Positions 24,692 to 44,259 of a stretch of 64,000 bases of DNA are shown here, piece after piece. The position numbers and the translations under genes were made by a program. The notes below the pieces were generated by a model, which saw only the letters and a list, made by a program, of their open reading frames with translations, did not search any database and was not told the DNA's origin. The stretch spans positions 17,192-81,191 of the forward strand of contig CAMKLO010000006.1 of NCBI GenBank assembly GCA_946413655.1, read 5' to 3'. Numbering within the stretch: position 1 is the stretch's first letter; the number at the start of each line of letters is the position of its first letter. This stretch comes from an uncultured Fibrobacter sp. (GTDB lineage Bacteria > Fibrobacterota > Fibrobacteria > Fibrobacterales > Fibrobacteraceae).

Positions 24692-25903
24692 TTACAATCC
24701 CAGAATTTTCTTGTAGGCGCCGATAAGCTTTGGCTTTTCGTATTCCCAGCAGAGTTCATTTTCAACGCGTTTGCGGCCAAAGCGGCCCATTTCAGCGGCC
24801 TTTTCAGGGTTGTCCAAAAGCCACAGAATCTTGTCTCCGAAATCTTCGATATCGGTGTTCTTCGCATAAAGCGAAGCCTCTTGCGCCGAGAACATTCCTT
24901 CCTTGAGCGTAAACTGCACAATTGGCTTTCCGAACGCCATGTATTCCATGATTTTGTTCATCGTCGATTTGTCGTTCATTTCAGAAGGCAAATCCGGATT
25001 CACGCACACGTCCGCCGTATTCAGCACATCGGCCAGATATTCATCCGAAACGCGCCCTGGGAATTCAACGTAATCCGTAAGATTCATCGTCTCGTTCAAT
25101 GCCCGCAATTCATCTAAAGACGGGCCACCACCCATGATGCAGAAATGGATATCCTTGCGGTTTTTCTTGTTCACGATGTAATCGATAGAACTCAGCAAAA
25201 GGTCAATCCCTTCCTGTTTGCCCATGACTCCAATATAACCGACAAGGTAATTGAACCCTTCCTTGACTTCAGGCTTTGTAGGACCAACCTTCAATTTGGA
25301 GAGATTCGGGCCACTGCGGACAATCGTCACATCCTCTTCGCGCTTTTTGCCGCGACGCATGGCGATTTCCTTGTACGATTCGTTCGTCACAATCGCATGC
25401 TTTGCAAAGAAATACGTAAGGCGTTCCACCAAAATCATGGCACGGTAGCCAAGACCTTTCTTGCCGAATTTCGCAATCCAAAGTTCCGGATTGATATCGT
25501 GATGGTCAAAAAGGAACTTGCAGCGCGTAAAAAAGAAAAACGGTGCCGCGGCAATAAAAATCAAGTCCGGTGGATTACATGCATGGATGACATCCTGCAC
25601 GCCCTGCTTGCGGAATACCTTGAACAAAAGACGAAATTCATGATAAAGCGCACACAAGTATTCCTTGAAGTAGTCCAAGGTTCCTTTCGCTTCCGGCAAT
25701 GGATGGCGATAAATCTTGATTCCTTCCAATTCCTCGTATTCCAAAGGGTACTTTTTGGTCTTTGGACAAATTACGGTCACTTCGGCGCCCGTTTCATGGA
25801 GCGATGTCGCCTCTTGCCAAACTCGGCGGTCAAAAGGAACCGGGAGGTTTTCAACAACGATACAGACTTTTTTGCCTGATAATTCCTTCGATGACAGATC
25901 CAT
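24692..25903 (-). CDS. Glycosyltransferase family 4
   Basis: KVCIVVENLPVPFDRRVWQEATSL, HACNPPDLIFIAA, NPDLPSEMNDKSTMNKIMEYMAFGKPIVQF. Confidence 0.92.
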   Translation of the reverse strand: MDLSSKELSGKKVCIVVENLPVPFDRRVWQEATSLHETGAEVTVICPKTKKYPLEYEELEGIKIYRHPLPEAKGTLDYFKEYLCALYHEFRLLFKVFRKQGVQDVIHACNPPDLIFIAAAPFFFFTRCKFLFDHHDINPELWIAKFGKKGLGYRAMILVERLTYFFAKHAIVTNESYKEIAMRRGKKREEDVTIVRSGPNLSKLKVGPTKPEVKEGFNYLVGYIGVMGKQEGIDLLLSSIDYIVNKKNRKDIHFCIMGGGPSLDELRALNETMNLTDYVEFPGRVSDEYLADVLNTADVCVNPDLPSEMNDKSTMNKIMEYMAFGKPIVQFTLKEGMFSAQEASLYAKNTDIEDFGDKILWLLDNPEKAAEMGRFGRKRVENELCWEYEKPKLIGAYKKILGL

Positions 25904-38911: not shown

Positions 38912-39053
38912 TGAGCCTTCCTAGTGGTCACAACACGCGAAGTAAGTCACCTCCGGCTTCCGCACAGATCTCCAGTCGAGACACAGAACCACCAGGAAGG
39001 CTTCTTCAATCCCTCCTATGAAAAAGGCCCGGTGCGGACGCACCGGGTCTTTT
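38912..39053 (+). ncRNA. Candidate structured ncRNA of unknown class
   Basis: Upstream TATATT -10-like box (GACGTATATTAATAC); long-range stem GCCTTCCTAGTGGT (38915-38928) with ACCACCAGGAAGGC (38988-39001), 13 of 14 paired; strong terminator at 39028-39053; no convincing ORF. Confidence 0.55.
39028..39053 (+). terminator. Rho-independent terminator, probably bidirectional
   Basis: CCCGGTGCG-GA-CGCACCGGG followed by TCTTTT; on the minus strand the same stem is followed by CCTTTTT. Confidence 0.8.
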
Positions 39054-39083: not shown

Positions 39084-39224
39084 TTAGCCTAATTCACGAT
39101 TATCTTCCTTATCGCTAAGCGGTGTAGTATACTCCGGACTGCCATCCAGCAAATTCATATGGTAACCCATTTCAACGACTTCCATTTCCGGAGCCATATA
39201 TTCTTTTTTCTGTTTAAGATTCAT
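39084..39224 (-). CDS. Small peptide (46 aa), paralogue of the 39244-39396 peptide
   Basis: MNLKQKKEYMAPEMEVVEMGYHMNLLDGSPEYTTPLSDKEDNRELG*; AGAGGG ribosome-binding site; shares its N-terminal region with its neighbour. Confidence 0.78.
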   Translation of the reverse strand: MNLKQKKEYMAPEMEVVEMGYHMNLLDGSPEYTTPLSDKEDNRELG

Positions 39225-39243
39225 TTTTCCCTCTGTATGAAAA

Positions 39244-39396
39244 TTAACCCAATCCACAGCCTTCACCGCATTCTGCACCTTCAAGAGTTTGCGAATCCTC
39301 ATCGGATTCGCTAACTCCCATCAAACGATTCTGGTAGCGCACTTGGACGACGTTCATGGTTGGAGCCATGTATTCTTTTTTCTGTTCAGGATTCAT
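39244..39396 (-). CDS. Small peptide (50 aa) with leader-like N-terminus and Gly/Cys-containing C-terminus
   Basis: MNPEQKKEYMAPTMNVVQVRYQNRLMGVSESDEDSQTLEGAECGEGCGLG*; AAAGGGA ribosome-binding site; not in the ORF track. Confidence 0.78.
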   Translation of the reverse strand: MNPEQKKEYMAPTMNVVQVRYQNRLMGVSESDEDSQTLEGAECGEGCGLG

Positions 39397-39413
39397 TGGT
39401 GTGTCCCTTTTTG

Positions 39414-39584
39414 TTAAAAAATCTTGTTGGTAGAATTAATCCCTATCGCATCACCTTCTTGCCGTAGTAGGCTCCGCGGGCATTGTTCACGCCATTCACG
39501 CGGCGACCCCGCAGCGGCCCATGCCGATGTCGCAGCAAAAGCCGCCATCATCGCACTAACAGAAACCACACGAAAATTTTTCAT
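39414..39584 (-). pseudogene. Remnant secreted protein: signal peptide followed by a frameshifted C-terminal tail
   Basis: MKNFRVVSVSAMMAAFAATSAWA signal; downstream +1 frame reads PLRGRRVNGVNNARGAYYGKKVMR*, resembling Fibrobacter C-terminal tails. Confidence 0.5.
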
Positions 39585-39813
39585 CAAGATTTTCCAATCC
39601 TTATTTTGATGTTTTTTCAAACATAACAAAAACTTACATCATTTGCAACAAAATACGCACAATTTCCATTTTTTTTGGTACAAAATTATCCAAAACCCCA
39701 TTTTTGAGCCAAGACCGCCACCCTTTTTCGCCCCCTAAAAAATTATTTTACAAAGATTTTTCACAAAAATTCCGGACAAACGGGTGAAAAAAGCGTGCAA
39801 AATGAGCGTCGCA

Positions 39814-39981
39814 GAAAAATGCTTGCATTTTTCTATGACCGAATGCAGCTCTGTGTGGCTCGGAACTTTAGTTCCGTTCACGGTTTATATTGATGAAATA
39901 GTCACCGATGTAACTTGCACATTCATAGAAATTTTAATTTCGTTATGAATGTAGCTGGGTACTGCGGACGCCGTAGGCGTC
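39814..39981. repeat. Cluster of four short perfect hairpins
   Basis: GAAAAATGC-TT-GCATTTTTC (39814-39833), CGGAAC-TTTA-GTTCCG (39861-39876), CATTCATA GAAATT-TT-AATTTC gt TATGAATG (39920-39951), GACGCC-GTA-GGCGTC (39967-39981). Confidence 0.7.
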
Positions 39982-40572: not shown

Positions 40573-41601
40573 CTAGCTGAATCTTCCGTTCAGCTGCTTG
40601 CGGCGGCGGCCGCGTTCCGAGACAACGGCTTCAATTAAGAACAGCAAGGCAGCCAGTCCAAGGAAAATCTGGTAACGGTCCTGGTAATTTTCCATGCGGT
40701 CGCTGCTCTGGTCCTTCTTTTCGAGCGTCGCGATTTCGGTCAGCACCTTCTGCAGCTGGAACTCGCCCGGGCTTGCGTAAAAGTAGAGTGCCCCCGTCAC
40801 GTTCGCGATTTCCTGCAATGTGCCTTCTTCAAGGCGGGTCGTCACGATGTTGCCTTGCATGTCCTTCTTATAGACGCTCCCGCCGTTCTTGTCCTTGAGC
40901 GGTATGGGCACGCCTTCGCGGGAACCTATACCGATAGTATATATCTTGATGCCCATTTCGGCAGCTTCTTTCGCGGCGTTCACGGCGGCAGCCTCAAGCT
41001 CTTCGCCATCGCTCATAAGCACCATGATGGAATGCTGGCTTGGTCCACCGGAGTTTTTGAACAAAGTCATTCCCTTGCGGATGGCTTTTTCCAGGTTCGT
41101 GCCCGGCATGAGCCATCCCGGATTCAGTTCGCGCAGCACCATCTGCACCGTGCCGTAATCGAGCGTCAAGGGGACCATTACCTGCGCCTCGCCACTGAAC
41201 GCCACCAAGCCCACGCGGTCGCCTGTCAGCGATTCGAGGAACGAGGAAATCTCGTGGCGGCTACGGACCAGGCGGTTCGGCTTCACGTCCTCGGCAAGCA
41301 TCGAAAGCGAGATGTCCTGCAAGAGCACAAGGTCCTGCCCGCGGCGTTCCACGTGCTCCATTTTACGGCCCCACTGCGGGCGCGCAAGCGCAACGAACAA
41401 AAACGCAATCGCGAGGAGCAACAGCAAGACCTTCGTGAGGCGCCTCCACGGCGAAACGCTTGTCGAAAGTTTCGTCAGCATGGGCAGCGAAACAAAACGG
41501 GCCGCCAACTTTTTACGACGATGATACGCATACACAAACAAGAGCGCAAAGAGAGGCAGGGTAAAAAGCCCCCACAAAAAATTCGGTTCAGCAAATCTCA
41601 T
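40573..41601 (-). CDS. VWA domain protein (BatA/BatB-like)
   Basis: VLLQDISLSMLAEDVKPNRL (MIDAS DxSxS), LMSDGEE, membrane segments at both ends. Start taken at MRFAEP. Confidence 0.92.
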   Translation of the reverse strand: MRFAEPNFLWGLFTLPLFALLFVYAYHRRKKLAARFVSLPMLTKLSTSVSPWRRLTKVLLLLLAIAFLFVALARPQWGRKMEHVERRGQDLVLLQDISLSMLAEDVKPNRLVRSRHEISSFLESLTGDRVGLVAFSGEAQVMVPLTLDYGTVQMVLRELNPGWLMPGTNLEKAIRKGMTLFKNSGGPSQHSIMVLMSDGEELEAAAVNAAKEAAEMGIKIYTIGIGSREGVPIPLKDKNGGSVYKKDMQGNIVTTRLEEGTLQEIANVTGALYFYASPGEFQLQKVLTEIATLEKKDQSSDRMENYQDRYQIFLGLAALLFLIEAVVSERGRRRKQLNGRFS

Positions 41602-41660
41602 TATAGACTCCAGTAAACTCGCCCTCAATCTTTGGGCAACAAGAATATACAAAATTCGAA

Positions 41661-41776
41661 GTTACTAGAGTTGAGTTACTAGAGTTGAGTTACTAGAGTT
41701 GAGTTACTAGTTACTAGTTAATAGTTAATAGTTACTAGAAACAGCGATAAGAACATCTCTAGTAACTCAAAACTAT
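41661..41776. repeat. GTTACTAG-family intergenic repeat
   Basis: Repeated GTTACTAG(AGTTGA) units, core GCGATAAGAACATCT, inverted arm CTAGTAACTC. Confidence 0.85.
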
Positions 41777-41846
41777 ATTACCAATTCTTTTCGTACAAAA
41801 AGTTTGCAATTATTTTATATTTTCCCATAAGGTTTAGGTTGCGAGA

Positions 41847-43016
41847 ATGTCTTACACAGGTCTTATAGAAATCAACATCATCTGCATAGCAGTGTTGCTC
41901 ATTACGCTGCTACAGTTCAAAGAAAGTGTCCTTAGGCACCTAGAAGAGCGCATTCTCGGCTTTACCATCATCGATACCATCATCTACATTGTGCTGAGCA
42001 CAGTGACCAAGATGCTGTACATGATCCACGTGCAAAACGACCTTTACGGGCACAACCAGAAAATCTGCGTCGTTTATGCAATCATGTACTCGTTGAGCCT
42101 CATCTCCTCGCTCCTTCTCGGGCAGCTCTGGTTTTCCTTCATATTCCTCCGAATCCGCAAGAGCGTCTATTCCTACAAGCACTTGTTCCCGCTTTTTTCG
42201 ACGCCAAGCATCATCGGCATCTTCATCTGCATCGGAATCAGCATCTACGGGTTCACCAACGACTGCCACGCGACAACGCTACAGTTCAGAAGGCTTTTGC
42301 CCTTCCTCATCGGGCTCAACCTGCTCTACATCATCGCGACGATGGTCATCGGCATCCAGAACGCCATTGCGCAAAAGAACTCCACGAACCGCAAAGAAGC
42401 GATTTATCTCTCCTTCATCGCCTTCATCCCCAGTTTTTCGTGCATTCTCCAGTACTTCATCCCAGACATTCCGCTCACGGACCCCATCTTCGCGCTTACG
42501 CTCCTGCATGTCTATGTCACCCTCCTGAAGTACAGGATTACGTCGGACCCGCTGACCAACGTGAACAACAAGATACGACTCATCGACTACCTGCAATACA
42601 TCACCCAGCATCAGGACCCGAGCAAGCGTCTGTTCATTCTGGTAATGGAAGTGGACTATTTCAAGGCGATTATCCACAAGTTCGGCTACGAAATGGCAGA
42701 CAGCGTCATCGCAGACCTCGCTGCATTCTTCAAGCGCCAGTGCCGCGAACAAAAGGGATTTTTAGCAAGAACCGGAGAGAACCAGTTCTCGATTATCATG
42801 GAAAGCAACGAACTCTCCGAAATCGAATCGTTCTGTCAAAAGCTCATCCGCGAATGCGAACGCGACGGCATGCAGGCGAACATGAACACATGGAAGGTTT
42901 CGTTCAGTATCCATTATGCCGACATCTCGAACATTTCTTCTAGCAACATTTCCAAGATTTTCAACGAAGCCCAGAAGAACTGCTACAAGCCCGAAACCCC
43001 GGCACCAAAGGAGTAG
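41847..43016 (+). CDS. Multi-pass membrane protein with degenerate GGDEF-like domain
   Basis: DPLTNVNNKIRLIDYL...VMEVDYFKAIIHKFGYEMADSVIADLAAFFK...ARTGENQFSIIM in place of GGDEF. Confidence 0.8.
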   Translation: MSYTGLIEINIICIAVLLITLLQFKESVLRHLEERILGFTIIDTIIYIVLSTVTKMLYMIHVQNDLYGHNQKICVVYAIMYSLSLISSLLLGQLWFSFIFLRIRKSVYSYKHLFPLFSTPSIIGIFICIGISIYGFTNDCHATTLQFRRLLPFLIGLNLLYIIATMVIGIQNAIAQKNSTNRKEAIYLSFIAFIPSFSCILQYFIPDIPLTDPIFALTLLHVYVTLLKYRITSDPLTNVNNKIRLIDYLQYITQHQDPSKRLFILVMEVDYFKAIIHKFGYEMADSVIADLAAFFKRQCREQKGFLARTGENQFSIIMESNELSEIESFCQKLIRECERDGMQANMNTWKVSFSIHYADISNISSSNISKIFNEAQKNCYKPETPAPKE

Positions 43017-43030
43017 CGCGGAGGAATGCG

Positions 43031-43154
43031 GAGTAACTAGTTACTAGTTACTAGTTACTAGTTATTAGTAATTGCGATAAGAACGTCTCTAGTTACTAGT
43101 AACTCTGAACTAGTAACTGCGCCGGCACCCTAGTAACTTAGAACTCGAAACTCA
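43031..43154. repeat. GTTACTAG-family intergenic repeat
   Basis: AACTAGTTACTAGTTACTAGTTACTAG...GCGATAAGAACGTCTCTAGTTACTAGTAACTCTGAACTAGTAACT. Confidence 0.85.
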
Positions 43155-43155
43155 C

Positions 43156-44259
43156 CTACGGTATTCTCACGAATCTTGTATTGGCAAGAACCAACTCCAG
43201 CAGAATGAGGAGCGCGCCTACCAAAAGCCACGGGTAGAATTTTTCCGCATAGCGGGCGTAAGCGATTGTTTCGATTTCCGTCTTTTCAAGTTCGTCGATT
43301 TCAGAATAAATCTTTTCGAGTTCAGCCTTGTTCTCGGCACGGTAGAAGCGACCGCCAGTCTTTGCGGCAACGTCCTTGAGTACGCTTTCGTCAATGCCCT
43401 CTTCGGGAGTAATGTCGCGTTCGCCCCAAGAGATTTCGCCAGTCCACGGGTTCTGCTGGAACGCCAGAATCTTGCCGTCCTTCTTGCCGACGCCGACCGT
43501 ATAGACCTTTACGCCCAGGGACTTTGCCACTTCGGCAGCTCGCATCGGCGGAACGACGCTGGCGTTGTCGCGGCCATCGGTCAAAAGAATCACCACGCGG
43601 GACTTCGCATCCGACATCTTGAGGCGGGCAAGCGCATTCATGAGGCCATCGCCAATGGCGGTCCTGTTGTTGATAAGCGTATCGCGGGCAAGGTCGTCAC
43701 TCGCCTTCAAAATTTCGAGCAACGAGCCATAATCGAGCGTGAGCGGGCACTGCGTAAACGAACGAGCGCCAAACGCCGAAAGCCCTATGCGGTCGCTATG
43801 TCGTTTTTGAATGAATTCCGCAATCACGTCCTGTGCATAACCAAGGCGGCTGTACTTCCAGTATTCGCCGCGCTTCAAAATCTTCTCGGCGTTCATCACG
43901 CCAAGCTTTGCCTGTTCCGTGCGCGTCAGCATGTCCAGCGTCCCCATGGAAGCGGAAACGTCAAGGGCAAGCATGATATCTACGCCGTCCGTTGATGTAT
44001 ATTCGACTTCCATGGCGTTCTGCGGGCGAGCAAGCGCCACCACAAAGCAAATGAGCGCCGCCAATCGAAGCGCAGGAACAATATGCCTAAACTTCACGCG
44101 ACGGCTCGGGACCGCCTTTTTCGCAAGCGCGAGCGCCGGGAACTTGATTGTACTCTTGCGACGCTGCTGACGGTAAACATAAAGCGCAATCAACAGCGGT
44201 ACAAACAACAACAGCCAAAAGGCTTCGGGATTTTGAAAATGAAGGGCTCCAATATCCAT
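43156..44259 (-). CDS. VWA domain protein (BatA-like)
   Basis: MLALDVSASMGTLD (MIDAS), LLTDGRDNASV, TM segments at both ends. Confidence 0.93.
   Translation of the reverse strand: MDIGALHFQNPEAFWLLLFVPLLIALYVYRQQRRKSTIKFPALALAKKAVPSRRVKFRHIVPALRLAALICFVVALARPQNAMEVEYTSTDGVDIMLALDVSASMGTLDMLTRTEQAKLGVMNAEKILKRGEYWKYSRLGYAQDVIAEFIQKRHSDRIGLSAFGARSFTQCPLTLDYGSLLEILKASDDLARDTLINNRTAIGDGLMNALARLKMSDAKSRVVILLTDGRDNASVVPPMRAAEVAKSLGVKVYTVGVGKKDGKILAFQQNPWTGEISWGERDITPEEGIDESVLKDVAAKTGGRFYRAENKAELEKIYSEIDELEKTEIETIAYARYAEKFYPWLLVGALLILLELVLANTRFVRIP

Follow-up and report, generated by a model that had tools for sequence, protein, structure and literature searches.

Two small adjacent genes on the minus strand of a 64,000-nucleotide stretch of DNA from an uncultured Fibrobacter genome (the whole stretch is called the window here) belong to a peptide family that is abundant in Fibrobacter, so far unnamed, and also scattered through rumen Prevotella genomes. 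Both genes are real, as their similarity to other family members lies far above chance. We consider it likely that they encode RiPP-type precursors, the leader of which is bound by a stand-alone PqqD-like RRE, and that a cassette of modification and export genes matures them in trans. By analogy with known clusters, this maturation probably consists of Ser phosphorylation or glycosylation.

As described in the initial annotation of this DNA, the window holds two minus-strand ORFs of 50 and 46 codons with a gap of 19 nt and a purine-rich stretch before each (Table 1). The N-termini of their products are alike (54-55% identity over the first 28-29 residues), after which the two peptides diverge. 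The same annotation had placed the listed ORF 39084-39302 in a different frame. This was a misreading, since the ORF shares the frame of peptide 2 and starts at an upstream in-frame ATG; it is therefore an N-terminal over-extension. Neither window peptide has a match in Pfam or NCBIfam at E ≤ 1. When either is used singly as a query, weak paralogues (E ~1e-3) are found in the window's own genome (G000), an assembly that is 88% complete and divided over 184 contigs. A phage origin of the peptides was rejected, as PHROGs contains no match for three peptides, including both from the window.

Table 1. Coordinates of the peptide genes and adjoining elements (positions refer to the window).
Feature	Position	Strand	Basis
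Precursor-like peptide 1, 50 aa, MNPEQKKEYMAPTMNVVQVRYQNRLMGVSESDEDSQTLEGAECGEGCGLG	39244..39396	minus	50 codons + stop; family member
Precursor-like peptide 2, 46 aa, MNLKQKKEYMAPEMEVVEMGYHMNLLDGSPEYTTPLSDKEDNRELG	39084..39224	minus	46 codons + stop; family member
Purine-rich RBS-like AAAGGGA before peptide 1	39404..39410 (read 39410-39404)	minus	sequence
RBS-like GAGGG before peptide 2	39229..39233 (read 39233-39229)	minus	sequence
Terminator-like hairpin CCCGGTGCGTCCGCACCGGGCC then T5, closing the peptide unit	39021..39051	minus	sequence
Companion-gene remnant: signal-peptide start MKNFRVVSVSAMMAAFAATSAWA.. joined out of frame to family tail ..GRRVNGVNNARGAYYGKKVMR stop; body missing	39443..39584	minus	sequence; comparison with G023

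A search for homologues across Fibrobacterota genomes had been proposed beforehand. With a broad family profile, 74 of the 80 genomes of the genus yield matches (E ≤ 0.01; best E 1e-20), with 1 to 13 copies each, and nothing is found at this threshold in the other six (G001, G024, G025, G029, G031 and G071). An earlier profile, derived from nine peptides of the window's own genome, gives matches in 76 of the 80 genomes at E ≤ 1. Besides having homologues, the peptide genes are not broken in their orthologues; the broken gene at the window locus is the upstream companion gene discussed below. Alignment of 96 peptides from the invariant Tyr reveals the leader KKxYxAPxMxVVxLxxQxxLLxxS, free of gaps, and behind it an acidic tail that varies. 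With this Tyr as position 0, the frequencies are 94-95% for KK at -3/-2, 84% for Met +5, 58% for Gln +13, 92/88% for Leu-Leu at +16/+17 and 88% for Ser +20. Tyr 0 and Pro +3 reach 100%, Y..P being the alignment anchor, and both are also invariant in a separate alignment. The information content is still 3.5 bits at +20 and then stays below 1 bit at each position from +21. The fixed leader spacing and the sharp drop in conservation after Ser +20 strongly support the layout of a leader plus a variable core, which had previously been read from the two window peptides. Tails have a length of 9-27 residues (median of 16), with 25% Asp+Glu and 12% Gly, and are too variable for a core motif or a modified residue to be defined. 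A comparison of selection on both parts, also put forward earlier, yields a dN/dS of 0.13 for the leader and 0.24 for the tail in 45 close pairs, which share sequences and are not independent. These values reflect purifying selection and thus indicate that both parts are translated and constrained.

The initial annotation further stated that no dedicated maturase lies nearby. This holds locally but is misleading, as a single RRE/kinase/peptidase/exporter cassette with other peptide copies at its head is located elsewhere in the genome. On contig C31 of the window's own genome, one operon encodes two peptides and two NTP_transf_5 proteins, together with an HprK-like kinase, an S24/S26 peptidase-like protein, the RRE (24719-24934) and an ABC exporter. 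The conserved operon as a whole features one or two NTP_transf_5 genes. The PqqD/RRE family (PF05402) is represented by a single stand-alone copy in most genomes of the genus. Pfam supports the assignments of PqqD (3e-13) and NTP_transf_5 (6e-41 and 1e-45), and in NCBIfam the RRE scores best against a lasso PqqD chaperone (1.6e-5). In 19 of 24 Fibrobacter loci, matches for HprK, S26, RRE and ABC are all present in this order, while the remaining five are cut by contig ends or are one match short. Peptide genes occur at the head of the operon, together with NTP, HprK, S26, RRE and ABC, in 11 of the 24 loci, where a companion gene is commonly found in front of the head peptides. NTP_transf_5 genes also occur directly behind peptides at sites outside the cassette. 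Among 40 near-complete genomes, 37 contain peptides, NTP, HprK and RRE and three contain none of them (Fisher p 1e-4, kinship ignored), a co-occurrence that depends on only three negative genomes, possibly of shared ancestry. One further genome (G031, 88% complete) carries the four-gene core HprK-S26-RRE-ABC (contig C15, L126, 4976-8228), but neither peptides nor the nucleotidyltransferase nor the companion domain could be detected anywhere in it. This core may either be a relic, act on other substrates or reflect missing sequence.

Two of the cassette proteins retain features that bear on their function. The structural model of the kinase (pLDDT 88.5) matches the PEPCK and HprK folds. Its His153, P-loop Lys174 and Asp193-Asp194 are invariant in 12 sequences, and the catalytic residues align with those of S. 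xylosus HprK/P (1ko7), albeit in a weak alignment (E 0.27). The His-Lys-Asp-Asp residue set is reported to be indispensable in lasso kinases (PMC9266682). In the S26-like protein, GRSMxPFI, HR and GDGN motifs are retained, consistent with a Ser-His-type signal peptidase, and the best models for this protein are those of signal peptidase I (8.5e-5), under the curated cut-offs.

We propose that these proteins act in succession on the precursors. Given its PqqD domain and the resemblance of the leader to that of known precursors, the RRE from contig C31 would bind the conserved leader and present the precursor. The HprK-like kinase would then phosphorylate a Ser, perhaps the conserved Ser of LLxxS, and the NTP_transf_5 nucleotidyltransferase would extend the phosphate with a sugar or a nucleotide, analogous to PsmN on pseudomycoidin. 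Subsequently, the S26-like peptidase would take off the leader and the ABC protein would export the acidic product. A single cassette would in this manner serve around ten precursor genes at dispersed sites in the genome.

The set of peptides and cassette resembles a phosphorylated lasso cluster minus the lasso-forming enzymes. The paeninodin precursor of Paenibacillus (PadeA/K/B1; PMC8498205, PMC9266682) has a leader of the K-K-x-Y-x-x-P-x-M/L-x-V type as found here, and its cluster likewise includes a stand-alone PqqD RRE, an HprK-like kinase with the His-Lys-Asp-Asp residues and an ABC exporter. In contrast, the Fibrobacter system lacks the B2 transglutaminase-fold peptidase and the Asn-synthase cyclase and has an S26-like peptidase instead, while its precursors are multiple and scattered. 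These precursors are also devoid of the C-terminal Ser acceptor that is modified in paeninodin, which counts against the RiPP reading. A kinase and nucleotidyltransferase pair as in the Fibrobacter cassette is present in the pseudomycoidin cluster of Bacillus pseudomycoides, in which PsmK/PsmN have been shown to act on a Ser that is phosphorylated and then glycosylated (PMC8498205, PMC9266682). Unlike pseudomycoidin, however, the Fibrobacter system has no lasso scaffold, and NTP_transf_5 is also encoded behind peptides away from the cassette. Haft's HprK-related A/B and SynChlorMet (ScmC/ScmD) cassettes (TIGR04352, TIGR04355, TIGR04249, TIGR04248) also combine an HprK-like kinase with a PqqD-like protein, but the scores here are far under the curated cut-offs and Fibrobacter adds the S26-like peptidase, the exporter and the nucleotidyltransferases. 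For the Hungate1000 rumen collection, antiSMASH 'RRE-containing' clusters were predicted (PMC13289728); this is a category only, and the text searched mentions neither Fibrobacter nor PqqD. Likewise, the cassette is not described in the searched passages of open-access rumen/Bacteroidales RiPP mining papers and lasso-kinase reviews. If the proposal is true, a lasso-type tailoring set works without lasso formation on many precursors scattered in the genome. With probable genes for modification and export, the peptide family of these key rumen plant-fibre degraders becomes open to direct biochemical testing.

Directly upstream of around 84% of the peptide ORFs (74 of 88) lies a gene for a large protein with a shared C-terminal domain. 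These companion proteins usually have a signal-peptide-like start and are apparently secreted, and InlB-type repeats occur in the bodies of both companion proteins examined. Their C-terminal conserved region spans about 260 residues and includes the tail TGE...DLKGRxLNxKP..KGxYY.xKKVIxK; the model of the domain (pLDDT 77) has no fold match in the PDB. The GR..KGxYY..KKV pattern is reminiscent of T9SS sorting tails, but NCBIfam lends no support to the T9SS label, as TIGR04183 (type A sorting domain) is unmatched in the three proteins scanned. In G043, a peptide is found directly behind nine out of ten genes with the companion C-terminal domain. Three companion-type genes of the window's own genome (L220-L222) have no detectable peptide behind them. 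The peptide-less genomes G001, G029, G031 and G071 have tail fragments only and lack the full domain. Because most precursor genes are located directly behind a gene for a large secreted protein, joint production of the peptide and the surface protein is probable, and the peptide product may have its role at the cell surface. Such a link between large cell-surface proteins and small modified peptides is undescribed in the open-access literature searched.

The system extends beyond Fibrobacter. A scan with the kinase alignment returned at least 595 matches; of the best 80, 13 come from Fibrobacter and 67 from Bacteroidota, for the most part rumen Prevotella. Among the matches listed, the closest kinase originates from a yak reticulum MAG (93% identity). 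The operon recurs in Prevotella, and the whole order companion-peptide-NTP-HprK-S26-RRE-ABC occurs in four of the best-matching records (L162, L164, L165 and L184), with Pfam confirming the gene order of L165, and the RRE is 62-76% identical between the Fibrobacter and Bacteroidota phyla. Nearly all Fibrobacterota outside the genus lack HprK. In the kinase tree, Prevotella and Fibrobacter group apart, separated by one weakly supported branch (61/87). Hence, no recent transfer between both groups is seen, and the tree gives no direction. Tentatively, and with slightly less than even confidence, we regard the system as a new RiPP class of Fibrobacter and rumen Bacteroidota, in which one cassette acts in trans on up to a dozen scattered precursors, each co-transcribed with a large surface protein, and the phosphorylated or glycosylated linear acidic peptides serve as decorations, anchors or signals that are tied to these proteins.

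The close association with companion genes could also mean that the peptides, rather than being natural-product precursors, are partners that the upstream secreted protein strictly requires, be it as chaperone, sorting adaptor, anchor or regulator. The cassette would then modify the peptide, or by way of the peptide the surface protein, for display of the latter. The position of the peptide genes behind the shared domain, their pairing in G043 and the missing full domain in peptide-less genomes are all in line with this. Yet, the leader matches those of RRE-type precursors, the cassette genes are for peptide tailoring rather than sorting, the peptides of the window have been kept although their partner gene is no longer intact, and the shared tail escapes the sorting-domain model in the proteins scanned; we hold such a partnership to be improbable. 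It is very doubtful that the precursors are cyclised to lasso peptides by a paeninodin-like cluster. A stand-alone RRE (B1) is present, one leader weakly matches the paeninodin precursor model (E 0.033), and RRE, kinase, nucleotidyltransferase and ABC match the accessory set of such lasso clusters (PMC8498205, PMC9266682). Lasso cores have Gly/Ala at position 1 and Asp/Glu at positions 7-9, and the tails here are acidic and variable. However, the B2 peptidase PF13471 occurs in none of the 80 genomes, although a control search found it in Bacteroides ihuae, and ten genomes contain no full-length Asn_synthase (PF00733) cyclase but only weak partial matches that cover about 70 of 354 positions and lie at a distance from the RRE locus. 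With both B2 peptidase and cyclase lacking, a lasso identity was rejected for the known lasso enzymes. The chance that the peptides are bacteriocins of the double-glycine type, with a C39 transporter for export and cleavage, is practically negligible. This route had been suggested for the window pair, and some leaders do end in LLxGS, which is superficially GG/GS-like, but at position +19 from the Tyr, Gly occurs in just 26%. A C39 peptidase is found in only one of ten genomes and not in the window's own (88% complete), by which the C39 bacteriocin was rejected.

A last alternative to precursors matured in trans concerns the window pair only, which might be a decaying leftover of a surface-protein/peptide module that has been non-functional since the large gene was lost. 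The upstream gene is indeed down to an out-of-frame signal peptide and tail. At the same site in the nearest relative (G023), where the flank is 98% identical, the companion frame is open and ends in ..YDLKGRRVNGTNNARGAYYGKKVLMK. The peptide module is unmatched in the four loci examined from other species despite a flank conservation of 81-88%, so the module is accessory at the window site. On the other hand, both peptide frames, the RBS-like sites and the terminator are intact, and the window carries two peptides where G023 has one (MKKEYKAPEMDVIEMEYKPDCLLCESGCDDVPVNNSDPFNPNLPSTTGPLG, with the same hairpin 3' of it). Moreover, the truncation of the companion could be a MAG assembly artefact. 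Loss of function is, all in all, rather unlikely, but the pair may be less active behind its truncated companion.

The surroundings of the peptide genes show some further features. Between the peptide terminator and an M16 peptidase gene, the segment 38895-39015 (minus strand) shows 81-98% conservation across no fewer than 15 genomes of the genus, including sites without a match to the adjacent peptide module. It has a stable predicted fold (z -2.9) and no Rfam match above the gathering score, and shows little covariation because the sequence hardly varies; we consider it a candidate structured RNA. A dispersed intergenic repeat with the palindromic core AAAAATGCAAGCATTTTT is located at 39757-39900, parts of which match many sites in the window's own genome and dozens across the genus (80-97%). 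Farther along, in a region not linked to the peptides (40573-44259), two genes for BatA/BatB-like VWA proteins lie on the minus strand (40573-41652 and 43156-44259), with a GGDEF protein gene (41847-43016) between them on the opposite strand.
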